From Desmodesmus armatus (taxonomy: Eukaryota; Chlorophyta; Chlorophyceae; Sphaeropleales; Scenedesmaceae): 64,000 nt of DNA. Below the pieces are notes generated by a model. That model searched no databases. It was not told the DNA's origin and saw only the letters and a program-made list of their open reading frames with translations. Both the position numbers and the translations under genes were made by a program. Shown here one piece after another: positions 41,248 through 63,406 of the stretch (its first letter is position 1; each line of letters starts with the position of its first letter). The stretch covers positions 89,287 through 153,286 of the forward strand of contig VIIQ02000665.1 of NCBI GenBank assembly GCA_007449985.2, read 5' to 3'.

Positions 41248-41492
41248 CGAATGCAATTGACCAGCGCACGCCAGTACTCAACACGCCAAGGGACAGCGTT
41301 GAGACGCCTGAAGGGGAAGACAGCTTACGATACACCCGCACAAGTTGTATCTACGTGAGAGCATTGCATGCATGGATGCGAGAGCTTGCAGCTGGGCCTC
41401 ATTTTTGGTCTGCAGAAAGGACGTTTTCCCCTGTAACTTTCAGCAACTCGTATACGTTGTCTTAAACTTCTGGTACGTTTCGTGTTCCTAGA

Positions 41493-41752
41493 CCTAGGCA
41501 GAAAACTGGCCACCAAGGCCGTCTGCTGCAGCCAGTACATCTGACAGTCAGCAGCACCTCAGCAGGGCTGCCACCACGCTCGGACAACCCCACCCATCAG
41601 CATATAACCTGCCTCACATAACAATTGCTTGTTTATGGTTTGTTTACGTTTCCAGGCCTAGGCTACAGACTGCGCATCAAGGCCGCCTGCTGCAGCCAGT
41701 ACATCTGAAAGTCAGCAGCACCTCAGCAGGGCTGCCACCAAGCACGGGCACC
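41493..41752. repeat. 162-bp tandem duplication
   Basis: Two copies of about 98 bp beginning CCTAGGC and containing CTGCTGCAGCCAGTACATCT start near 41,493 and 41,655. About 90% identical. Confidence 0.85.
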
Positions 41753-42590
41753 CCAAACAGCATGTACTATCTGCCACAGCATGTATAACCTGCCACTATC
41801 ACAGATATGGGCCGTCACAGGCACCTCCATTCCCCGCATGTGCCTGGAATGTCTCACAACAGCAGCTGCACGCCTCAAGGCCAAGTGGCCACACCCCATG
41901 CCATGCCCACAATCCCATGCACAACGCACCTTTGCCACTACATCACAACTGTGTATGCGGTGATGTAGACGGACAAACTTGCTGACTGCTGTGGCAAACG
42001 TGCTGCAACAGCACCACCAGGCAGATGCACATTCAGCATGGCCAACCCTGACATTGGAGGCACCTCAATGCCATGGGCTTCAACTCTGCCGCTGGTTGAG
42101 TCCAGCACCAATGGTTACCCTTCAACAGCCCCCTAACCTATGTGATCTTTTGAAAGCATGGTTACATCCACACGCAACCTAGCAGACGCCAAAGGGGGAT
42201 CACTAGGCCACGGAGTTCAATGCTTGCTGCTGCTGCAAAGCCTGGTCAAGGCCATGCCAGTGGTCAAGCTCCGTGCACCATTGACACTACTGCTGCCAGC
42301 ACAGCCGGGGCAAGACAAGGGTCAAATTTCAAGCTGTAAGCAGCGACAACAATACTGCTGCTGCTGTTGCTGCTGCCCCTGGTCAAGGCCAGGCCAGTGG
42401 TGGTCAAGCTCCGTGCAGCATCCACAATACTGCTGCCAGCAGAGCCTGGAGAAGTCTAGGGTCAAACATCAAGCTATAAGCCGCAACCACAATACAAGTG
42501 CTGCTGCTGCTGCTGTTGCTGCTTCAAAGCCTGGCGACCAGTGCTGGCCACAAGGCCCTCACAGCATCCACAGCACTGCTGCTGCTGCTG
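41753..42590. other. GCA/GCT-rich region, no gene
   Basis: Contains diverged repeats of a block with AAGCCTGGTCAAGGCCA and CTGCTGCTG runs, at about 42,230-42,570. The same block recurs at about 46,860-47,010 in the second segmental unit, corresponding to the 3' flank of the DUF1499 gene. No coding frame supported. Confidence 0.5.
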
Positions 42591-50125: not shown

Positions 50126-50720
50126 TGACACGAGCAGCAGCTACACTGACCGATTCCTGCTGAGTGAGCAGTAATCTTCACAGGAAGGTTATGCTGTGTA
50201 CAAGGCTATACAACACATGCCTTAGCAGAATCAGTGTGATAGTTGACTAATCATGTTGAGTCAACAAGGACTCTGGGTGATATCAGATCATGCCAGATAC
50301 TGCTGCGTGGCAGTGCTATTATTGGTGGTTAAGTGCTTGGGAGTTGTATGCGATGAGTTTGGTGCTGCGATGCACAGGTGAAGGATCACTGGCGGGTTCA
50401 GGGTTTACCGCCTGCAGTGCCGATTCCTTTGTGCCGCTGTGGTGCTCTGTGCGTCGCACTCGGCTTTGACAGTGCTTGGTGTAAACTTCTGGCAGTGTTT
50501 CCCGAGTACTCGCTCATTTGAATCCCCAATTCAGAGCGCACAGGTGCAGCAACCAGCCCCAGCAGCGACCTGTGGTCGAACCGGGTGCCTGAACATCACT
50601 CATACATTCATACAGCGCATCAACACTTTGCAAAGGACTACAAGTGAGTATCTGCTACCCTCAGAGCAGCCAGCTGGCTGCGAAGCATCATTGCTGCAAG
50701 CTTTAGGCAGCAAACCACAA
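50126..50720 (+). repeat. 5' LTR (part matched by 3' LTR)
   Basis: The matched portion is 50126-50720. The true right end lies beyond, probably 50,740-50,800, and cannot be fixed because the other copy is cut by the window edge. It must contain the element's promoter; no sure TATA box or primer-binding site was identified. Confidence 0.88.
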
Positions 50721-50892: not shown

Positions 50893-53001
50893 TTGCGTGG
50901 GTTTTTGGGAAGATCCACTGGTGCATTTCAGAGCTGGCCCATTTCCAGGCTGGCTTCTTCAGCGGGCAGGCGTGGACAGCAGCCATTTCCAACGTCTGGA
51001 TCGCTTTCGGAGCAGTTCCAATCGGTGGTTCGGCAAGCTGTTGGTCAAGTGCGTGCGTCGGAGGAAGCAGGTGGCGCTGACAACCAGGAGAATTTGGGCT
51101 CTGGACTGATCAGCTACTCTGGTGACCAGGATCAGCACATTGGCGAGCAGCAGGAGGACAGCACTCTTGTTTTCACCAATCCACTCTTCGAGCAGGCCAC
51201 CAGCAGCATGGCTGGCCTTGGCAGTCTGTCTTTTGGGGGCAAGCTGGACTCTGGAAGCAGCAGCAGCAACTCCATGATACCAAAGCTATGGTCTGGACAG
51301 CCTGGAGTGGATTCCTTCGGAGAATGGCAGCGTGCTGTCAGGTGGAACCAGGGCCAAAAGCGCAATGCAGCCATGGACAAGAAGCTGGACAAGCACTCTG
51401 GTGAAGAGATTGCCGAGATTGCCCAGTTGACTGTCATACGCTCCGATGGTGCCAAAGCAGTGGAGCAGGCTGGGCAGGTCTTGGAGAAACATGTCAGGGC
51501 TGCTGACCAGGGCTGGTATCCTCCACAGGAGCTGGAAGCAGCTGCTCTGGAGTTTGTGCGCAAGCGTCACCCCAACAGTGACTTGGCAGAGCAGACGCTG
51601 GCAGCATTGATCAAGGAGAGGTATGAGAAAGTACACATTGCTGCGGTTGCCAAGGGCTGGGCACTTGAGGACAGTGTTGGGCTGGAGCAGGCGCTGACAG
51701 CAAACTCTTCGCCACTTGTGCAGCAGCAGGACTCAACTGGCAACAGCAGCGGCGGTGGCGGCGGCGGCCTGCCTCCTGCAACAACAGATCCTATGCAAAC
51801 TGCTATGCTGGGCTTCTTCAAAACGCTCAGTGACAGGCTGGTCAAGAGCACGCAGGACAATAAATACTTCATGACTGTGGGGATGAGGAAGTGGAGCCCT
51901 CACAGCTGTGTCATGGAGCTTTTCTGGTGTATGATGGACGCAGCATACGGAGTGGCCAGCAGCAAGGAGCAGGCTGAGTTCTACCAGCTGCAGAGTGAGG
52001 GTTCCCAGGGCAGCAGGCAGGTGCAGGAGTTTGCGCAGCGCGTGGCAGTGCTGTATGAGAGTGTCAAGACACTGGGCATTGTGCCAGCAGGTGCAGACAT
52101 TACCACCTTCTGCAAGGGTCTCAGCAATGCCAGCAGCAGGCAGTTTGCACGGCAGCGCAAGGAGGAGTACTATGCGTCCAACAGAACTCACATTGCGCTG
52201 GAATCACTAGCTGACCAAGTTCAGCAATTCGAGAAGAACCTCCACCAGGATGGCGTGCTGGCGCAGCAGGCATTGATTATGGTGGGCAACAGCAGTGTGG
52301 GAGCTGGAAGCAGCAAGAACGCCCGGCGCGCAGGTGAGGAGAGTACACTGGTGCAGACGCTGCTGCGTTCTCGCCGGGAGAATGAGGCTACACAGCAGTA
52401 CCTCAGCAAGATGGGTGCGCGTGAGAAGCTGCTCATCACCAAGGGCTTTGACATGGCGGAGATCGACCCCAAGGACCCCTCTGCTGTCTGCCTGGACTGT
52501 CCTGCAACAAAGCGGCCACACCTGAACCAAGACTGCAAGGGCAGGCGCATGGCGGGGCTGGCTATGGCAGCAGCGCAGGAGGGCAGCACTGCCAACAAAA
52601 GCAGCAGCAGCATTGGCAGCAGCGCTGGAACCTTGGACGTCAACACGCTGGCAATCATGGTGCAGCAGGCAGTGGCTATGGCAGCAGCAGGAGCAGGCGC
52701 AGCACCGGCAGGACTGGGGCAAGGGCTGCCAAGGGCTTACAACAAGCCAGAAAACAGCAGGGGTAACAGGGGCTATGGTGGCAGCAACGGCAGGCAGCAG
52801 CAGTACGCAGGGCCACCTGGCTTGGGTGTTGGGTCAGCAGTTATGGCGTGTGTCATCTGTGGCTTTGCCAAGGGCCACTCAGATGGTGTCTGCTATATGG
52901 ACAAGCCAGAGCTGGCTCCAGAGAAGTGGGAGGGCCCCACGGAGCGTGCACCTGAGCAGGGATGGTGCACTACATCTCCCGCTGCATGCAGCAGAAGCTG
53001 A
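50893..53001 (+). CDS. gag-like polyprotein
   Basis: The 702-codon frame is open from 50893, with its first ATG at 51208. Residues about 330-460 resemble the retrotransposon gag capsid region (WSPHSCVMELFWCMMDAAYG; QEFAQRVAVLYESVKTLGIV). Two zinc-knuckle-like motifs follow: CLDCPATKRPHLNQDC (CX2CX6HX4C) and CVICGFAKGHSDGVC (CX2CX5HX4C, one residue longer than the classical knuckle). The role is particle assembly and RNA packaging. The frame ends within the next ORF, which starts at 52962 in the -1 frame; no classical slippery heptamer is visible. The start codon is uncertain. Confidence 0.8.
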   Translation: MRGFLGRSTGAFQSWPISRLASSAGRRGQQPFPTSGSLSEQFQSVVRQAVGQVRASEEAGGADNQENLGSGLISYSGDQDQHIGEQQEDSTLVFTNPLFEQATSSMAGLGSLSFGGKLDSGSSSSNSMIPKLWSGQPGVDSFGEWQRAVRWNQGQKRNAAMDKKLDKHSGEEIAEIAQLTVIRSDGAKAVEQAGQVLEKHVRAADQGWYPPQELEAAALEFVRKRHPNSDLAEQTLAALIKERYEKVHIAAVAKGWALEDSVGLEQALTANSSPLVQQQDSTGNSSGGGGGGLPPATTDPMQTAMLGFFKTLSDRLVKSTQDNKYFMTVGMRKWSPHSCVMELFWCMMDAAYGVASSKEQAEFYQLQSEGSQGSRQVQEFAQRVAVLYESVKTLGIVPAGADITTFCKGLSNASSRQFARQRKEEYYASNRTHIALESLADQVQQFEKNLHQDGVLAQQALIMVGNSSVGAGSSKNARRAGEESTLVQTLLRSRRENEATQQYLSKMGAREKLLITKGFDMAEIDPKDPSAVCLDCPATKRPHLNQDCKGRRMAGLAMAAAQEGSTANKSSSSIGSSAGTLDVNTLAIMVQQAVAMAAAGAGAAPAGLGQGLPRAYNKPENSRGNRGYGGSNGRQQQYAGPPGLGVGSAVMACVICGFAKGHSDGVCYMDKPELAPEKWEGPTERAPEQGWCTTSPAACSRS

Positions 53002-55634
53002 AGCCACGGCTGGGGCGTTGCAAGGAGCTGCTGCGGAGGATGATGCAGAGCAACAAGCTGCCGCCAGCTATGCAGCAGTTCATTGGACAGCACACACAGC
53101 AGCAGCGGTACATGAACATGGCTTATGGCGCAGCAGCAGAGCCGTATGGGGCTTATGCAGCTTACATGACAGGCATGGGGTCTGCTGGTTCCAGCTACTG
53201 GCCCATGGGCGGCTCGGCAATGCAGCAGCCAATGGCAGGGCTGCCACCCTCTCACACACCGCTGGCTATCACTGGTGCAGTTGGCGACAGCACCGGTGAA
53301 CAAGCAGCAATGATGGTGCTGCCGGATGCAGGCGGGTATGTGAGTGAGGAGCAGCAGCAGGAAACAATGCACTTTGGGCCCTCTTTCTGTTATGTGGGCT
53401 TAGCAGACTGGCAGCAGGATCTGGCAGGTGGGCTCTTTGACTCAACGGGACATGAGTATGCACTGGTTGGGACACGTGCACAGGCAGGAGCTGGTGCAGT
53501 GCAGCAGGGCAGGGTTGTCAGGCAGCCTGTGCCCAAGGGCTTCCTACCACCCTCAGCTCTTCCTACAGACCTGAATGCCATGCGTTCCATGCCACGCATC
53601 ACCAATGCACTGGTTGCTGGCTTAGGAGAGCTGGACGGCACCAGCAGGGGGCTACTGCACACGCTGCTTGACATTCAGCGGTTTGTGGCGAGCAGGGTAT
53701 CTGCTTTTGGAGACCTTCTGGGTGTGCAGGAGGCTGGTGGAGCACATGGTAGCAGCAGTGCACAGCAGGGAGGGCAGCAGGCTCTGCAGGAGGCAACAGC
53801 AGCAAAGGGTACTGCCAGCATGGTGTCCAGCAGCAGTTCTGGGCGCTGTGGCCCTGTTGCAGCAGCGGCGGCAAGCAGCCGCAGCCTCCTGGAGTCAGTC
53901 ATGCTGCAGTATGGCTTCAAGCCAGTGGCAATCGATTACACCCTACGCCAGTCAATGCCTGTGACGCTGGACTTCCTGGTGGGCACGAACAAACAGGAAG
54001 GATTGACACTAACAACCCCGGATGGGCGTGATGTGCTAGTAGATATGGCGTTCCAGGACTCAGGTGCCACACTGCTGCTGTTCACTGAGGTGGCTTGTGG
54101 CGAGTGGGGTACTTACATCTTCAGAACAAATCAGGTGCCGTCTGTCAAGGGCATTGATGGGCTGCCGTCCAAGAAGATTATCGGCAGGACAGGACCGCTG
54201 GTTCTCACACTTGCCAAGGGACACCCACTGGCAGCAGTCCTGCCCGTTCCGTGTGCTTGGGTGCTGGAGGGAGACGCGGGTGGCATGTTTAAGGTGTGCT
54301 TGGACAAGAAGACACTGCTGCCGGTGTTTGGGTATGTGGATCCAGCCCTCAACATGCTATGCTTCCGTCCCAAGGCAGCACAGGGCAGGCTTGACATTAT
54401 ACACGGCATTCCCGTGCGTGGCTATGTCAAGAACGGCAACAGCAGCATCAGCAGTGGCAACATGGCGGCTGCCACCATCTGGGAGGAGGACAGCAGGGAC
54501 ACAGAGGAGCTTGAGGGCTCAGCAGCAGCAGTGCCGGGCATCAACTACAGGCCGTTTACTGCAGAGGAGAACACTCTAGCCAATGCAGAGCTCGAACGGC
54601 TGCTTCAGGCAGGAGTTATCACAGAACTGGATGCTGGGCCATTTGAAGTGAACGATCGCTGGTACTTGGACCACCTGGGCCTGAATGGTGGTGTGCCACA
54701 GCAGGTGCAAGAGGACTTGGACAGCAGCAGCTCCACTGGGTCAACCGCTATGCCTGAGCTGTGCACAGGCAGTGACAGCGACAGTCTCCCAGAGCTGGTG
54801 GATGCTTACAACCCAGTGACTGCTGACATCGAGTATTTCAGCCCTCATGGCAGTGCAGCAGATGCTTGGCTGCAACAACAAACTGGGGGTGAGCACAACA
54901 AGCGCAGGCGCCGGCGTGGGCGCGGCCGCAAGGGCAGGGGGCGGCAGCAGCAGCAGCAACAGCAGGAGCAGGAGCAGGAGCAGGCAGAAGCACAGCAGCC
55001 ACTGGAGGAGCCAGCAGGCAAGCTATGGGGCTTTGACTGGTCCAAGGCTGCTGGTCAGCTGCTGCCGGGCATCAGCTGGATCACGACACACATGGTGCTG
55101 CTGCTGCTAGGCATGTTCCACTTCTTTGTGGACTTGCCGCTGAGGAAGTACCCCTCAAAGATCATGCGTGGATTGGTCAGCATGGCGGGAGCAGCAGTGC
55201 GCCCAGGCAACCCCATGCGCGCAAGGGAGTATAATGTGGCAGAACCTGTGCCCACTAACAACCTTGGCGACACACGGCGCGCACGCAAGCGTCGGCACAA
55301 CAGAGGGCCCAGGCCAGGCCCTGGCTTGCAACCGACGGCAGAGCAGGACGCACCGCAAACAAAGGTCTCTGTGGTCGCCACAGTGCGTCACTCTGGCAAG
55401 GTCATCACTGCGCGCACAGTGCTGATGTGCCTGCTCTGTTTCTTCTCAGTGCTGTGCTCCACAGCAGCAATGCAGGTTACCAACAGCATTGGGGCAGCAG
55501 CCACTGGATCAGCACTGCAAGCTGGCTACTTTCCCCTGCCACATGGCGTCCCACCACACCTCAACATGCACTTGCTGCAGCAGGAGCTTGCCAACCTGCA
55601 TTGCAGTAGGTTTCGCTGCTACAGCAGAGCATGA
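52962..55634 (+). CDS. protease-containing ORF with hydrophobic C-terminal segments
   Basis: 890 codons in the frame -1 to gag. The first third is Gln/Gly/Tyr-rich linker. A retropepsin-like centre lies at about residues 330-450, with FQDSGATLLLFTEV holding the active Asp near residue 366. After it come KRRRRGRGRKGRGR (nucleic-acid or nuclear signal) and Gln runs. Two hydrophobic stretches follow (WITTHMVLLLLGMFHFFVDL at about 703 and VLMCLLCFFSVLCSTAAM at about 818), unusual for a gypsy protease region and possibly membrane-associated. It overlaps the pol frame 55489-55634. Confidence 0.75.
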   Translation: MVHYISRCMQQKLKPRLGRCKELLRRMMQSNKLPPAMQQFIGQHTQQQRYMNMAYGAAAEPYGAYAAYMTGMGSAGSSYWPMGGSAMQQPMAGLPPSHTPLAITGAVGDSTGEQAAMMVLPDAGGYVSEEQQQETMHFGPSFCYVGLADWQQDLAGGLFDSTGHEYALVGTRAQAGAGAVQQGRVVRQPVPKGFLPPSALPTDLNAMRSMPRITNALVAGLGELDGTSRGLLHTLLDIQRFVASRVSAFGDLLGVQEAGGAHGSSSAQQGGQQALQEATAAKGTASMVSSSSSGRCGPVAAAAASSRSLLESVMLQYGFKPVAIDYTLRQSMPVTLDFLVGTNKQEGLTLTTPDGRDVLVDMAFQDSGATLLLFTEVACGEWGTYIFRTNQVPSVKGIDGLPSKKIIGRTGPLVLTLAKGHPLAAVLPVPCAWVLEGDAGGMFKVCLDKKTLLPVFGYVDPALNMLCFRPKAAQGRLDIIHGIPVRGYVKNGNSSISSGNMAAATIWEEDSRDTEELEGSAAAVPGINYRPFTAEENTLANAELERLLQAGVITELDAGPFEVNDRWYLDHLGLNGGVPQQVQEDLDSSSSTGSTAMPELCTGSDSDSLPELVDAYNPVTADIEYFSPHGSAADAWLQQQTGGEHNKRRRRRGRGRKGRGRQQQQQQQEQEQEQAEAQQPLEEPAGKLWGFDWSKAAGQLLPGISWITTHMVLLLLGMFHFFVDLPLRKYPSKIMRGLVSMAGAAVRPGNPMRAREYNVAEPVPTNNLGDTRRARKRRHNRGPRPGPGLQPTAEQDAPQTKVSVVATVRHSGKVITARTVLMCLLCFFSVLCSTAAMQVTNSIGAAATGSALQAGYFPLPHGVPPHLNMHLLQQELANLHCSRFRCYSRA

Positions 55635-58600
55635 TTCTGGCCAAGTGAAGTGGTACCAGGCCGACCCAGCAGCTCTGGACCAACTTGGGCCCGATGGCGC
55701 AACAGAAGATGTGCATGACGCCAGATGGACAGTGCACGATGAGGGCAAATGGATCTTGGGCAACCACCCAGATGCATCGCCTGCACAAATGGACCAGCTG
55801 GTGCAGATGCTGTTGGAGGAGCGAGGGGCATTTGCTTACAGTCTGCAGGACTTGCCTGGCTACACAGGGGACGTAGCTGACTTCAAACTGATCGATCCCT
55901 CCAAACGTATGTGGAGCGCACCCAGACGCTACACAGAAGAGGAGGTGAAGTTTGCCAAGGAGAAGGTGCAGGAGATGCTGGATGCGGGCATCGTAAAAGA
56001 AATTCCAACGACCTGTCCGCATGCTTCAGCTATCACGTTGCCTATGAAGCGAGCACCCGACGGTAGCTGGACCGACAAGCGGTTCTGCATCGACCTGCGC
56101 AACGTCAACGGCAACACAGTGGTGGACAGTTACGGCCTGCCACTACCGGAAGAACTGTTTAGGCGAATTAGGGGGCACAAATTCTTGGTCAAGGCGGACT
56201 TTAGAGCGGGCTTTTGGCAGCTCAACCTGAGCGAAGAGGCGCAGCAGCACGTGGCCTTCCACGCACCCGACAGTGGCAAGCGACTGACCTACACGCGGCT
56301 GTGTTTTGGTCACGTGAACGCCACGGCAATTTTCCAGCGGGTTATGGAGAAGGAGCTGGCAGCAGCTGGTTTGTCTCACTGTGCGGCGCCGTTCGTCGAT
56401 GACGTTATCATGTGGTGCGACACCTGGGAGGACATGGTGACCAACTTCAGAACACTTCTACAGCATCTCAAGACAGTGGGCTTGCGCCTGCACCCTGCCA
56501 AGACAATCGTGGGTGCAGACTGCTTGCCTTACCTGGGTCACCTGGTATCAGCCAAGGAGTGCAAGCCGGAGCCAGCCAAGATTGCAGGCATCAAGGCACT
56601 GCAGCCACCCACCAGCCTCAAGCGCCTGCAGGCCCACCTTGGCCTGTTTAATTACTACAGGTGCTATGTGCCCAACTTTGCCATCATTGCCAGGCCGCTT
56701 TACAAGCTTATGGAGAAGGGTGCGCAGTACATCTGGAGTGATGACTGTAACCAGGCGTATGAGGGGCTTCGAACGGCGCTGTGCAAGAAGGGTTTGGGGC
56801 TCAGGCAGCCTGTGGATGGGCGCAGTTTTCATCTGTATGTCGACTGGAGCAACACGGGCATTGCAGCTGTGCTGAATCAGGAGGCGGAGGATGGGACGGA
56901 GTACATGGTGGCCTGTGCCAGCAGGTCCCTCAATGCAGCTGAGCAGAACTATCCCGCCTGGAAAGGCGAGATGATGGCAGCAGTGTGGGGCGTCAAAATG
57001 TACAGGCCGTACTTGCACTCCAGGGAGTTCTATCTCCACAGCGACCACCGGGCGCTGTTATGGCTGCTGACACAGAAGACACCAGTGGGGCAGCAGATGC
57101 GTTGGATTCTGGCACTTCAGGAGTACCGCTTCTCACTGGTGCACAGGGCAGGCAAGTCAAACCCAGCTGATGTGCCTAGCAGGGAAGCCAGTAGCTGTGT
57201 GGCAGACACCACTGGAGCCAGGTTGGACACGGAGCTGCATGACTGGGTGCCCACTGTGCTTCTGCCAGACTGCAAAACAACGGACCCACTGGTCTACACA
57301 CATGACAGTCTGGCACTGGAGCTGGGCATTGGCAGCAAATCAACAGCAGCAGCTGGAGTGGCAGCAATGGCTTATGAGGAAACACCTGGTGACTGCCCAA
57401 TCCTTCACAGCCCAGCAGCAGCGCTGGCGGCAGAACCAGCAGACAGCTACAGTCATGAACAGCTGGAGCACGAGGCGTTGTGTTGTCTACTGTGCAGCAA
57501 CGAGTCTGCAGTGGACACATTCGCCCCAACCGCCGACTCATTGCTGGGGGGGGAGACAGCAGGACAACTTTTTGCTGACGATGGCTGCTGCGTGGACACA
57601 CAACACCCAGCAGTAGCTTGGCGGCAGCATGACCTACAGCAGGCAGCATCGGCGTGGGTCACATTGGCAGGGCTACAACAGCCCCAACCGGACAGCTTCC
57701 AGCCAGGAGTGTACACAGGTGCATTGGACCCCTGGGGCGTAAGGGAGACACAAGGGCTGTGCACGGCTACTGTGGCAGACACGTTCTTCCCGGCAGCGCT
57801 GCAGCAGGGCATCGTGCTTTATGAGCCGTTTGGTGGCATCTGCGCAGGGCTGGAGATGGTGCTCAGGAGTGGCATCACAGTCAAACAGTACCTGTACAGC
57901 GACATCAACCCCATGGCACAGCGGGCGGCGTTACACAGGATCAGGGTGCTGCAAAGCATGTATCCCAAGCAGCTACCGGAGGATGCTTTGGCTGGCAGTT
58001 TCAGCATTCTTCCCATGGATGTGAGGCACATCACCACACAGCAGCTCAGCAAGGCTGTCAGCGAGGCACCAGTCAAGCAATGGCTGGTAGTAGGAGGCTG
58101 GCCCTGTCAAGACTTCTCTGCAGCAGGCAAGTCACAGGGGCTTCGGGGTGATCGGGCTCAACTGCTGTTTGACCTGGTCAGGGTAGTGGGAGCGTTGCAA
58201 CAGCTACTCCCACACCAGCCCCCAGCCTACCTGGTGGAGAATGTGCTCTTGCAGCAGCACAGGCTGAGCAGCATCAGTCAGCATGACTTCAATAAAATCA
58301 AGGCGTGCCTAGGGTTACCTGTGGTGCTGGACGCAGCACAGTTTGGCAGCCTTGCACATCGGGCGCGCAACTTCTGGTCCAACCTGGTTGGGCCCAGTCA
58401 ACTGCGAGCAGCTTTGGCATTTGTCAAGAGGCCACCCGCACGCAGCGTACAGCTTGCCTTGGGACCTGGCAGGACCGCGCAACCTGTCAACCGACCAGAC
58501 GCTGCTCCTCTCTACCCCTGCAACGCACCAGGGCAGCCTCGCGCAGCCTGGCCTACCTTGGTCAGCAGCGCACGCTCCTACGCCTTCAGGCCTGGCCAGC

Positions 58601-60018
58601 CTGGCAGTGTTTTGGACACAACGGTGCCTGCTGTAGTCAAGTGGGGCGAGCCAACAGCAGAGGAGAGAGAGGTAGCTCTGGGCTATCTTCCAGGCAGCAC
58701 AGCAGCAGCAGGCCTCACACAAGCGCAGCGGTGTGCGTTGCTCGGTGAAAGCATGGATGCCAACACTTTGCAGGTGCTCATGGCCATCGCCAAGGCTTGG
58801 TTCCTGCGGGGCCTGCCTACCTCTACTGACTTGGCGACACGTGCATTCAGCGCACACGAAGGGGAACTGGCGCAGGAGTGGCCTGGCAGAGAGGCAACTG
58901 CAACCCCACATGGCTATCAGCAGCAGCTAGCCATGACAGCTGGCTACCAGGAGAACACTACGGCTACGAGCCAAGGTGACATCTGGGCCGACGATAAGAC
59001 CCTGGAGTACATCAGAACAGGGCAACTCCCACAAGACCTGGCAGCCAGCCAGGCAGCACGTATCAAGCGACGTGCACGCTCATACTACTTCAAGGACCAG
59101 CAGCTGATCAGGAGGATGCCAGATGGCACCGACAGGCTGGTACCTCCACCACAGGCGCGTGCTGGTCTCATACGGCAGCAACACGAGATGTGTGGGCACT
59201 TTGGCAGGCGGCGCACCTCAGCCATGCTACTCAGTAAGCACTGGTGGTATGGGTTACTGGCGGACGTTGCAACAGTGCTGTCACGCTGCGAGCACTGCAG
59301 CAGGGTGCATGCCAGCTTCACCGCCAAGCCGGAGGAGCTGCGCCCCATTCCAATCAGCAGCATGGGTTTCAGGTGGCACGTGGACACAGCTGGGCCACTA
59401 CCCAAGAGTGCAAAGGGCAACAAGTATGTGCTGGTGTGTGTTGAGGCATTCAGCAAGTACCTGGTGGTGGTGCCGATGGAAAACGACAAGGCGGAGACCA
59501 CTGCATACCACTTCTTGCACGGTGTATTGGCACACTTTGCAGCACCAGGGCAGGTGGTGACAGACTCAGGGACAGAGTTTGAGGGCGAGTTTGCCAAGCT
59601 CCTGGAGGATGCGCTCATCGATCATGCCATCATCAGTGCAGACCACCCTCAGGCCAATGGTCAGGCAGAGAAGGCTGTGCACATCGTCAAGCGGGCGCTT
59701 ACCAAAATGGCAGTGGCAAGGCACAGTGTCAAGCAGTGGGATGAGGACTTGGCATGGCTGGCACTGGGCTACCGCTGCTCTCCACAGGCCAGCACAGGCC
59801 ACAGCCCGTACGAACTCATGTATGCACGTCCACCGGTCATTCCACCTGCAGTGAAGGAGCTTGTCAGCACACCCCTGGACATCAGTGCTGAGGCGGCTGT
59901 CAAGGACCTACTGCAGCGTAAGGAGCGGCTAAAGCAGCAGGTGCCCATTGCGCTGGAGAAACCTGGCGATTGCACAGCACAGGGATCAGCGCCGTTACCT
60001 GCAGCTGCGTGCGCCTGA
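55489..60018 (+). CDS. pol: RT, RNase H, C5-DNA methyltransferase, integrase
   Basis: 1509 codons; coding probably continues from the previous frame near 55,600. RT spans about 130-400, with FVDD at 302-305. RNase H spans about 445-570 (D452, E494, D519). The methyltransferase spans about 774-1105: motif I PFGGICAGLE (780), SDIN (804), MDVRHI (843), GGWPCQDFSAAGKSQGL with catalytic C873, ENV (917), HRARNFW (957) and LLGESMD (1084). The order is canonical, unlike DRM enzymes. HRARxFW and LLGxS recall DNMT3; the PCQDFSAAG block recalls bacterial Dcm types. Integrase: H1232/H1237/C1267/C1270 zinc site and D1299, D1359, E1394. All catalytic residues are present, so each activity is plausible. Confidence 0.92.
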   Translation: MGQQPLDQHCKLATFPCHMASHHTSTCTCCSRSLPTCIAVGFAATAEHDSGQVKWYQADPAALDQLGPDGATEDVHDARWTVHDEGKWILGNHPDASPAQMDQLVQMLLEERGAFAYSLQDLPGYTGDVADFKLIDPSKRMWSAPRRYTEEEVKFAKEKVQEMLDAGIVKEIPTTCPHASAITLPMKRAPDGSWTDKRFCIDLRNVNGNTVVDSYGLPLPEELFRRIRGHKFLVKADFRAGFWQLNLSEEAQQHVAFHAPDSGKRLTYTRLCFGHVNATAIFQRVMEKELAAAGLSHCAAPFVDDVIMWCDTWEDMVTNFRTLLQHLKTVGLRLHPAKTIVGADCLPYLGHLVSAKECKPEPAKIAGIKALQPPTSLKRLQAHLGLFNYYRCYVPNFAIIARPLYKLMEKGAQYIWSDDCNQAYEGLRTALCKKGLGLRQPVDGRSFHLYVDWSNTGIAAVLNQEAEDGTEYMVACASRSLNAAEQNYPAWKGEMMAAVWGVKMYRPYLHSREFYLHSDHRALLWLLTQKTPVGQQMRWILALQEYRFSLVHRAGKSNPADVPSREASSCVADTTGARLDTELHDWVPTVLLPDCKTTDPLVYTHDSLALELGIGSKSTAAAGVAAMAYEETPGDCPILHSPAAALAAEPADSYSHEQLEHEALCCLLCSNESAVDTFAPTADSLLGGETAGQLFADDGCCVDTQHPAVAWRQHDLQQAASAWVTLAGLQQPQPDSFQPGVYTGALDPWGVRETQGLCTATVADTFFPAALQQGIVLYEPFGGICAGLEMVLRSGITVKQYLYSDINPMAQRAALHRIRVLQSMYPKQLPEDALAGSFSILPMDVRHITTQQLSKAVSEAPVKQWLVVGGWPCQDFSAAGKSQGLRGDRAQLLFDLVRVVGALQQLLPHQPPAYLVENVLLQQHRLSSISQHDFNKIKACLGLPVVLDAAQFGSLAHRARNFWSNLVGPSQLRAALAFVKRPPARSVQLALGPGRTAQPVNRPDAAPLYPCNAPGQPRAAWPTLVSSARSYAFRPGQPGSVLDTTVPAVVKWGEPTAEEREVALGYLPGSTAAAGLTQAQRCALLGESMDANTLQVLMAIAKAWFLRGLPTSTDLATRAFSAHEGELAQEWPGREATATPHGYQQQLAMTAGYQENTTATSQGDIWADDKTLEYIRTGQLPQDLAASQAARIKRRARSYYFKDQQLIRRMPDGTDRLVPPPQARAGLIRQQHEMCGHFGRRRTSAMLLSKHWWYGLLADVATVLSRCEHCSRVHASFTAKPEELRPIPISSMGFRWHVDTAGPLPKSAKGNKYVLVCVEAFSKYLVVVPMENDKAETTAYHFLHGVLAHFAAPGQVVTDSGTEFEGEFAKLLEDALIDHAIISADHPQANGQAEKAVHIVKRALTKMAVARHSVKQWDEDLAWLALGYRCSPQASTGHSPYELMYARPPVIPPAVKELVSTPLDISAEAAVKDLLQRKERLKQQVPIALEKPGDCTAQGSAPLPAAACA
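57796..58803 (+). other. C5-cytosine methyltransferase domain within pol
   Basis: Sub-region of the pol ORF, residues about 770-1105. It is flanked by linkers of about 200 residues (after RNase H) and 95 residues (before integrase), and is in frame with no stop. Motifs I, II/III, IV, VI, VIII and X can be identified. The target-recognition region between VIII and X is about 115 residues. Predicted to transfer a methyl group from S-adenosylmethionine to cytosine C5, with sequence preference unknown. Confidence 0.9.
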
Positions 60019-61216
60019 CTACAAGCCACGCGTTCACAGGTTTATGGTGGGTGACTACGTCTACACTCAGCAGCTTAACCGGGCAAGCAAGCTACAGCCC
60101 AGGGCCAAACCCCTCATTCTGCGAGTTCTGGAGGTGCGGGACTCTGGGGTACTGCACCTGCAGGGGCGCTGTGGCCGGACCATTGAGGTGCACATGTCTC
60201 ACTGTGCACCCTGCCACTTGCCTGATATCGACGGCGGCATCGACCCACTGCTGGTGGACAACACAGATGATGTGGTCTGTGAGGTATGCAGCACCAGCGA
60301 CAACGGGGCCGAGCTCATGCTGTGTGACGTGTGCAACAGCGGATACCATACCTACTGCTTGCAACCACCACTCAGCAGTGTGCCTGACGGTGTGTGGCTG
60401 TGCCCGGAGTGTGTGGACGCTGGCTACACAGAACAGGATGCTGCTGGCAGGGAGCAGCAGCGGCAGCAGCTACAGGAGCGGGAGGCCAGGCCAAACATAT
60501 TCCCCGGCGCGCAAATGAAGCGCAGGGACGAAGCAGCACATGCGCTGCATGGCCGACTGGTGCTGAAGGCGTTCACGGATCCAGCCACCGGGAAAGGCAG
60601 GAAGTACTGGGGCAGGATCTACTTCAAGGATGCTGAGTCACGCCCATACTACTTCCGAGTGGTGTACGAAGATGGGGACTCTCACCACGCCACCATGGCA
60701 GGCATCAAGCGCTACCTGCAGCCGGAGGATGCAGTGCTGCCACCTGGGGCCAGCATTCCTACACCAGAGTCACTGGCAGCAGCAGTGGCGTACGCACGAC
60801 AGCTGGTCAGCAGGGTTGCTGGCGGTTCAGTAGCTGTTCCTTCCACAAGGGTCTCACCGGCAGATGTGCAGTTGCTGCAGCTTACAGTGCAGATGTCCCT
60901 GGTTCAAGCCCTGGTGGACCCACTAACACTCAACACCCAGTGGCAGCAGGTTTTTGCTGGGCGACCGTTCACTGTGGGCTGCGGGCCTGTACAGCACGGC
61001 GCTACAGCCATCATCATTACACCTACAGCACCCTTTGTGCTTCATGCAGTTTTCACAGCACTGCAAATGAGGCCATTGGTGGTGCTCTGTTACGTGCCTT
61101 CACTGGCGTTTCCAGCTGACATCCACCCTCTGTTCAGTGCACTCAAGCAGCAACGGCGAGCAGCAGCATTCAGGGGCAAGAATGGCTGCTGGCTGGTGCT
61201 CAGTAGGCAAGGCTAG
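59948..61216 (+). CDS. integrase C-terminus + PHD finger + Tudor-like module
   Basis: 422 codons in frame +1 to pol. The first about 70 residues (RDQRRYLQLR; FMVGDYVYTQ) are the normal continuation of integrase. The two frames become continuous if one base of the AAA near 59,960 is disregarded, so this is probably a 1-base indel rather than a true gene boundary. Residues about 108-157 are a PHD finger of C4HC3 type (CEVC, CDVC, YHTYCL, WLCPEC), a histone-tail reader. Residues about 210-265 (YWGRIYF; VVYEDGDS) resemble the Tudor-like YEDGD module of algal chromatin proteins. The last 110 residues are globular and unrecognised. Confidence 0.85.
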   Translation: MRWRNLAIAQHRDQRRYLQLRAPDYKPRVHRFMVGDYVYTQQLNRASKLQPRAKPLILRVLEVRDSGVLHLQGRCGRTIEVHMSHCAPCHLPDIDGGIDPLLVDNTDDVVCEVCSTSDNGAELMLCDVCNSGYHTYCLQPPLSSVPDGVWLCPECVDAGYTEQDAAGREQQRQQLQEREARPNIFPGAQMKRRDEAAHALHGRLVLKAFTDPATGKGRKYWGRIYFKDAESRPYYFRVVYEDGDSHHATMAGIKRYLQPEDAVLPPGASIPTPESLAAAVAYARQLVSRVAGGSVAVPSTRVSPADVQLLQLTVQMSLVQALVDPLTLNTQWQQVFAGRPFTVGCGPVQHGATAIIITPTAPFVLHAVFTALQMRPLVVLCYVPSLAFPADIHPLFSALKQQRRAAAFRGKNGCWLVLSRQG

Positions 61217-62626: not shown

Positions 62627-63406
62627 TGATATGGCAGAGACAGCAGGTGCTGCCGCAGCAATTAGCAGCAGCAGCAGCAATTGCTGGGCGTCTGGATTGG
62701 CTTTGGTAGCGACAACAGCTTTGGCAGCAGTGGTTTAAGGCCGTCTGGAGTGGCCTCTGCTGGAGCGATGGTTTGTGCCAGCTGGGGGTGCCCAGACTGG
62801 CAAGCAGCTTTGCAGGAGGTGGGGAGCAGCAGTGATTTATTGGACATTGTGGATAGTAGCTTTGGCCTTTCACATGCGAACGATGTGGGGGCATCTGTCC
62901 TGCTTGCATGTTGGTTGGGATTTAGCAGCAGTGAGCGCAAAGGGCCACTGTTTGTGCTTGTCAAGCTCAGTGAAATATGCTTCCTGAGTAGTTAAGTGAG
63001 TGCTGCATGACTCACTTGTGTGCAGCAGATCCAGCAGTGGCTGGGTTTGTTTGTCAATTATGTGTGTGTGTTTTTGACTGTGCAATGCACAAACATCACA
63101 TGCGTTGTAGTGTGTGTGCCCAGCGTCTGGATGTGCCTAGATGCCGTGGTGAGAAAAGACAAAAAACAAAAATGTCTGTTGACTTGTGTTGTGTGGTCAC
63201 AGCAGCATTCTCTGCAAGCAATGTGCAGTTTTCCCCGTGCGTTGCGCATCAGCTGTGTGCTATCAGCTGTTGCATGTTGCTTTTGGATTGGGTTGTTTGT
63301 AGCTGCTCAATGTGAGTACTGCTGCTGTGTAGTGTACCCAGCAGCAGTGGGGGGGGTGTACACCCCTAGCAGCAATCTGAGCAGGTCAGTGTTCTACTGC
63401 GTCAGC
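62627..63406 (+). other. non-coding 3' internal region of the retrotransposon
   Basis: No coding frame supported. A G run (63,349-63,356) lies about 50 bp before the 3' LTR, which is too far to be a standard polypurine tract. Confidence 0.45.

Follow-up and report, generated by a model that had tools for sequence, protein, structure and literature searches.

A predicted DNMT3-type methyltransferase in the Pol polyprotein of a Gypsy-type retrotransposon family with split terminal repeats in the chlorophyte Desmodesmus armatus

Organization of the element and its ends

The window (the whole stretch of 64,000 nucleotides of D. armatus DNA that was analysed) ends within a retrotransposon, the features of which are listed in table 1. 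The Pfam families matched in the Pol ORF follow the order RVT_1, RNase H, DNA_methylase, Integrase_H2C2, and rve, which contains the RT-RNase H-integrase arrangement with a DDE (rve) integrase of Ty3/Gypsy elements. An earlier note on this DNA had described a complete-looking C5-methyltransferase (MTase) between RNase H and integrase, and both the open reading frame and the Pfam order bear this out. The DNA_methylase match itself (E 1.7e-10) has its best stretch at residues 866-962, which is only the region around motifs IV-VI. The Pfam scan found no family above cut-off in the Gag-like ORF, no protease family in the 890-aa ORF, and no ADD or PWWP families in the ORFs scanned. Where the gag and protease ORFs meet, the window copy and each of the three sister copies read differ by one base in length. 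Outside the element, diverged direct repeats (about 85%) were observed at window positions 41484-41754 and 42607-42700/47066-47159.

Table 1. Features of the retrotransposon copy in the window.
Feature	Position	Strand	Basis or remark
Left terminal repeat A1, 594 bp, starts TG	50126..50719	+	Direct repeat of the right end at 99%; borders via other copies
Gag-like ORF, 702 aa	50893..53001	+	ORF list; zinc-knuckle-like Cys/His stretch by eye only
ORF of 890 aa with protease-like DSGA motif	52962..55634	+	Motif by eye
Pol ORF, 1509 aa, RT-RNase H-C5-MTase-integrase	55489..60018	+	Uninterrupted ORF and Pfam
Reverse transcriptase, RVT_1 (Pfam stretch 202-351)	56092..56541	+	Pfam
RNase H (Pfam stretches inside residues 416-546)	56734..57126	+	Pfam
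Predicted DNMT3-type C5-cytosine MTase domain, 336 aa	57796..58803	+	Pfam, alignment, PDB profile, AlphaFold2/Foldseek
Catalytic Cys codon of the MTase domain	58105-58107	+	
Integrase: Integrase_H2C2 zinc domain and rve core	59143..59640	+	Pfam
PHD finger (E 7e-13)	60278..60412	+	Pfam; inside overlapping ORF 59948-61216 in this copy
Tudor-like domain (PTM_DIR17)	60551..60685	+	Pfam, below curated cut-off; ORF 59948-61216
G-run, polypurine-tract-like, immediately 5' of B1	63344..63355	+	Shared with the C774 family
Repeat B1, ~49 bp, terminates CA	63356..63404	+	
Repeat A2, reaching the contig end	63407..64000	+	B2 and right flank absent from the window copy

The ends of the element are organized as A - coding - B - A - B, with a left A of 588-594 bp and a right B-A-B in which B is ~49 bp; the inner joint of the right-end repeats reads CA-GC-TG and a G-run lies 5' of the first B. 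A second family of the genome (C774, MTase 61% identical) shows the same repeat plan and G-run with an A of ~536 bp and a B of ~192 bp. Two identical terminal LTRs, as expected of a Ty3/Gypsy element, were found in neither family (A1 stands at the left and B1-A2-B2 at the right), and a plain LTR structure was rejected for the copies compared. Split direct repeats of this type are a DIRS-type character, but the tyrosine recombinase that replaces a DDE integrase in DIRS-type elements was not found: rve is present and no recombinase family was matched in the four ORFs scanned. The description as an LTR retrotransposon in the earlier note is thus corrected as far as the terminal repeats are concerned.

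Elements of the window family carry TG...CA ends, and four out of the six copies that are readable at both ends are flanked by a 4-bp target duplication (the other two, C99 and C629, have no identical 4-bp flank). Such ends with a 4-bp duplication are as a DDE integrase leaves them. The A1 and A2 repeats show zero mismatches in 5/5 copies compared, with a 6-bp gap in C629 and C634; in the window copy 3 mismatches and 6 gaps separate the two repeats. No TGG-type primer site was seen by eye directly 3' of A1. The B-A unit might correspond to an LTR behind a polypurine tract, and the B|A joint would be the site at which the integrase opens the cDNA in its circular or tandem form. The combination of split direct repeats with a DDE integrase bears on how such ends form.

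The methyltransferase domain

Among PDB sequence profiles DNMT3A scored highest against the MTase domain (51 bits), followed by DNMT3B (about 42), plant methyltransferases (32; DRM2 28.5), and M.HhaI (26), and none of the 59 PDB sequences with an E of up to 10 carries the name DNMT1. The match to the DNMT3A/DNMT3B catalytic domain is significant over profile positions 75-256; motif I and the C-terminal motifs are matched in colinear order but weakly. An AlphaFold2 model of the domain (mean pLDDT 94.9) was compared with the PDB using Foldseek. This gave 1070 matches with an E of up to 10, and the 50 best ones listed are without exception DNMT3 entries. The model resembles the catalytic domain of DNMT3A/DNMT3B in fold (E 6e-18, TM 0.69/0.81) but shares only about 23% sequence identity with it, and motif IV reads PCQD instead of the PCND of DNMT3A. 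A tree of C5-MTases with 63 rows (23 retrotransposon domains chosen from the matches, 28 viral, 11 bacterial, and one DNMT3A), in which the single DNMT3 row sits on a long branch and DNMT1, DNMT5, and CMT are not among the rows, joins DNMT3A with the retrotransposon domains (99% SH-aLRT) and separates them from the bacterial and viral enzymes. A Dcm-like or viral/bacterial origin was rejected because all 38 viral and bacterial ORFs fall outside this grouping; these are the 28 viral and 10 bacterial ORFs that passed filters on length and motifs after a sampling of 45 viral and 15 bacterial loci, of which 49/60 were used. The domain is thus DNMT3-type as judged from profile, predicted structure, and tree, which replaces the view of the earlier note that mixed DNMT3 and Dcm motifs leave the origin unclear.

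Motifs I-X occur in the DNMT3 order with the catalytic Cys, ENV, and RxR. The catalytic Cys, the Glu-Asn of motif VI, and the Arg of motif VIII are invariant in 17 domains within the genome. Near-full homologues, defined as covering at least 300 of the 336 positions (118 of the 180 database proteins with a match), carry the active-site Cys, the motif-VI Glu, and the motif-VIII Arg in 118/118 cases and the motif-VI Asn in 117/118, in a sample that was collected by similarity and is biased toward conserved homologues. Conservation of the catalytic residues in sister copies, on which the earlier note had made its reading depend, is therefore seen both inside and outside the genome, and the methyltransferase looks intact and catalytically competent from its sequence.

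Copies, relatives, and known elements

The MTase domain is 100% identical at the amino acid level, over all 336 residues, at 34 places in the genome including the window, among a total of 94 matches (matches were counted as pieces, the 34 as assembled places). The 34 places are not all independent insertions since the window copy and C634 have the same 5' flank, which suggests one insertion assembled twice rather than target choice; four out of six 5' flanks read differ. Pol and the PHD finger share a single open frame of 1937 aa at 16 of the 34 places (the frame length recorded for the PHD finger there equals that of Pol). The open frame of the window copy is 1530 aa, and this copy is interrupted relative to its sisters such that the PHD/Tudor part falls in an overlapping ORF. 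Between positions 59850 and 60060, 28 out of 29 sister copies differ from the window copy by one base in length; the opposite difference was seen in 1/29. Contig C634 (L073) carries a tail-to-tail pair of element copies whose A2 repeats are inverted and nearly abutting, an arrangement that is either real or an assembly palindrome. The window family looks recently active given the number of identical domains and the mismatch-free A repeats of five copies.

In addition, the genome contains about nine divergent MTase groups by our own grouping of the matches (83-45% identity), plus fragments: C630 (83%, one stop), C167/C123/C829, C773/C774/C78/C647, C379/C229, C180a, C589/C211/C180b/C147, C431, C786, and C190/C131 (down to 45%). 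Several of these groups carry stops or shifted frames and some have long open frames. The window copy reaches the contig end and is frame-interrupted, as might be expected if an ordinary host gene or an assembly chimera lay inside one retrotransposon copy. This explanation has a negligible probability and was rejected: the identical domain is found on many contigs, which also answers the concern of the earlier note that it might be unique to this copy, divergent groups exist within the genome, and environmental polyproteins show the same domain order.

The analysis covered 189 sequences, and in 69 of them RT, MTase, and integrase each span >80% of their profile. The order is RT-MTase-integrase in every one of these, same-order polyproteins come from many environmental contigs, and a PHD pattern is present 3' of the integrase in 90/93 cases. 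Outside the 69, the MTase precedes the RT in P0168 (integrase cut) and follows Gag-protease in P0171, P0178, and P0179. The position between RNase H and integrase is therefore not universal, and these four cases represent domain relocation or repeated capture. Named hosts of relatives are Scenedesmus sp. NREL 46B-D3 and Tetradesmus obliquus (fragments), and a relative in Cymbomonas tetramitiformis contains RNase H-MTase followed by an integrase-like zinc motif (identified by eye). Judged from such relatives, the DNA of the window would probably belong to a green alga close to Scenedesmaceae. One polyprotein of the same family (P0187) was deposited as part of a Minisyncoccia bacterium MAG and is probably a mis-binned algal contig. 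Overall, this looks like a large, old lineage of MTase-bearing elements.

The dN/dS of the MTase was 0.099 (C180a-C589), 0.105 (C167-C78), and 0.185 (C786-C190) in between-family pairs with dS under 1, indicating from sequence comparison that the domain is under purifying selection between families. The corresponding values for C180a-C589 and C786-C190 were 0.058 and 0.132 for RT and 0.038 and 0.164 for integrase, with some dS values of these domains exceeding 1 and a C786 integrase cut to 99 codons; the integrase value of C167-C78 (0.309; 78 codons, 29% identity) was set aside due to a broken frame in C167. Compared with RT and integrase in the same pairs, the MTase ratio is higher by a factor of 1.1 to 2.6, and the MTase is therefore less tightly constrained than these two domains. 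Saturated pairs gave MTase values of 0.12-0.24, and near-identical pairs gave noisy values of 0.11 to 0.67 (dS was 0 in one pair). Distance matrices are correlated between MTase and RT (Mantel, 0.84), MTase and integrase (0.74), and RT and integrase (0.81), with 0/1000 permutations each. The preserved active site, the dN/dS of ~0.10-0.19, and a divergence that tracks RT and integrase argue that the MTase is a maintained part of the element and not a host insertion into one copy.

In an RT tree with 29 rows, a branch with 100/98 support separates 21 selected MTase-bearing RTs from 8 MTase-less RTs; the latter are sequences of this genome with no MTase match nearby (only C18 was read), and long branches meet among them. 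Since Gypsy-type relatives without a nearby MTase match coexist in the same genome, including one with about a dozen near-equal copies, the MTase is not required. The family read (L082, C18:42600-50000) is organized as RT-RNase H-PHD-integrase (order by eye, PHD by match), and its about a dozen near-equal RT matches are 35% identical to the window RT.

Elements of this kind are already known. In Klebsormidium, a Gypsy element that has DIRS-like repeats and carries a Dnmt3 within its Pol was described, and DIRS and LINE cases with a C5-methyltransferase in Symbiodinium (de Mendoza et al. 2018, PMC5890265), so that the statement of the earlier note on captures in a streptophyte alga and dinoflagellates agrees with the account in that article. 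Its suggestion that the lineage is new looks correct, whereas the position may not be unique in view of the Klebsormidium Pol. As presented in the sections of PMC5890265 on KnitGypsy-Dnmt3 (Klebsormidium nitens), that element shares with ours the Dnmt3-type domain within a Gypsy Pol, DIRS-arranged repeats with Gypsy domain content, and conserved key residues, with a Ka/Ks below 0.2 there. Its host is a streptophyte and ours a chlorophyte, and the main text of PMC5890265 never uses the word "PHD". Among the named matches of the database searches none was a K. nitens protein; most matches are nameless, and the searches scored candidates that shared most words and were of limited length. The same article presents SymbioDIRS-Dnmt3 and SymbioLINE-Dnmt as retrotransposons with a C5-methyltransferase, of Dnmt3 type and with split A-coding-B-A-B repeats in the DIRS case, but these carry a tyrosine recombinase or are LINEs, in contrast to the DDE integrase found here.

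The words "chlorophyt-", "green alga", and "Chlamydomonas" are absent from the main text of PMC5890265, the passages of Sarre et al. 2025 (PMC12344493) on retrotransposon DNMT3s mention them only from streptophytes and dinoflagellates, and PMC6338049 has, in its passage on the subject, one sentence without data on DAM- and DCM-encoding retrotransposons in green algae. Literature searches for a chlorophyte Gypsy element with a C5-methylase showed no such report among the papers listed. As far as these searches go, the new aspects are the chlorophyte and environmental lineage, the RT-RH-DNMT3-IN-PHD order, and the breadth of the group.

Proposed function and its meaning for host methylation

The writer is located between RT/RNase H and integrase and is therefore positioned to act on fresh cDNA. 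The likeliest mechanism suggested by this order is that the long Pol of the Gypsy-type element carries a DNMT3-type MTase that methylates the element's own cDNA before integration, a proposal to which we give an even chance. Pol would be packed together with the element RNA, RT and RNase H would produce double-stranded cDNA, and the tethered MTase would then methylate its cytosines, probably in CG, within the particle or the pre-integration complex. The integrase, steered by the trailing PHD/Tudor reader, would insert the methylated cDNA, and host DNMT1 would retain the mark after insertion. A pre-methylated insert would resemble host DNA and evade the sensing of unmethylated foreign DNA at the price of earlier silencing. 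The earlier note had offered methylation of the element's own copies, concealment from other silencing, and marking of target sites as possible purposes.

PHD fingers are histone readers. Chromoviruses, the chromodomain-bearing Ty3/Gypsy elements, likewise combine a Gypsy Pol with a chromatin reader behind the integrase, but in the present element PHD/Tudor replaces the chromodomain and an enzymatic writer and split repeats are added. MTase and integrase within one polyprotein and the frequent PHD pattern 3' of the integrase would also agree with an action at the target or after integration, in which PHD/Tudor-bound Pol or integrase methylates the insertion site or resident copies and thereby marks safe heterochromatic targets. 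The MTase-less C18 family points in the same direction, as its PHD finger lies between RNase H and integrase and chromatin-related modules thus recur at that place. The differing 5' flanks, together with a shared window/C634 flank that suggests a doubly assembled insertion, speak against such targeting, which we regard as rather unlikely.

A point against methylation of the cDNA before integration is that the Klebsormidium counterpart yielded no methylation in yeast, a result its authors called inconclusive; the Symbiodinium DIRS enzymes were active in yeast (as given in the yeast assays of PMC5890265). The same conserved active site would serve equally if the MTase shields the cDNA from a host nuclease or deaminase that targets unmethylated cytosines, in the way a phage methylase counters restriction; analogous ideas appear in passages of PMC5890265 and PMC6338049, and we consider this protective role improbable. 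Alternatively, the element may methylate its own copies and so invite host silencing, which would limit damage and copy number. The discussion of PMC5890265 suggests such self-restraint for other retrotransposons with a DNMT, and the host DNMT1 could serve it, but the family looks recently active, with its 34 identical domains and five copies with A repeats free of mismatches, and the idea appears quite unlikely here.

The host genome contains DNMT1-RFD exons on contig C146, where 2 of the 4 PF00145 matches outside the element list are also located, and a mark set by the element could therefore be maintained. The RFD and PF00145 matches at C146:127529-138506 probably mark the exons of a DNMT1 gene of the host. 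Exon-wise genome searches, an insensitive approach, revealed no DNMT3 gene of the host. Outside the element, positions 1-50123 of the window show strong CpG depletion with an excess of TpG/CpA. The CpG o/e is 0.44 over this region and 0.47 in the element, which is not below its surroundings, so no signature of self-methylation stands out. Other MTase families range from 0.38 to 0.585 and an MTase-less Gypsy copy has 0.62 (one copy, too few to judge). C-to-T changes in C630 (window family, 81% identical DNA) amount to 14/80 in CG, 13/199 in CHG, and 23/337 in CHH, with 18/125, 26/276, and 40/511 in L003 and 4/24, 1/77, and 9/109 in L005, two loci from other families; C630 was the only diverged copy of the window family in this comparison. 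These changes cannot be credited to the enzyme of the element because reverse changes are also frequent and the whole window is poor in CpG. The CpG depletion suggests a general CG methylation of the genome, and 76.9% of CG is methylated in Scenedesmus acutus according to the relevant passage of a review.

PMC5890265 presents the Klebsormidium element as acquired independently; the findings suggest that it may belong, as a single tip, to a wider lineage of green algae. We think it unlikely, on present sequences, that these elements and those of Klebsormidium form one ancient lineage that supplies the de novo writer seeding CG methylation in DNMT3-less chlorophytes. Such a lineage would be defined by a Pol that contains a DNMT3, by a PHD reader, and by split repeats on which a DDE integrase acts, and if it existed, its elements would seed a genome-wide CG methylation that is later kept by host DNMT1. 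A retrotransposon that carries the very enzyme hosts use for silencing it is a puzzle, and a young multi-copy family with divergent sisters in one alga, a selected enzyme, and a chromatin reader makes this puzzle testable.
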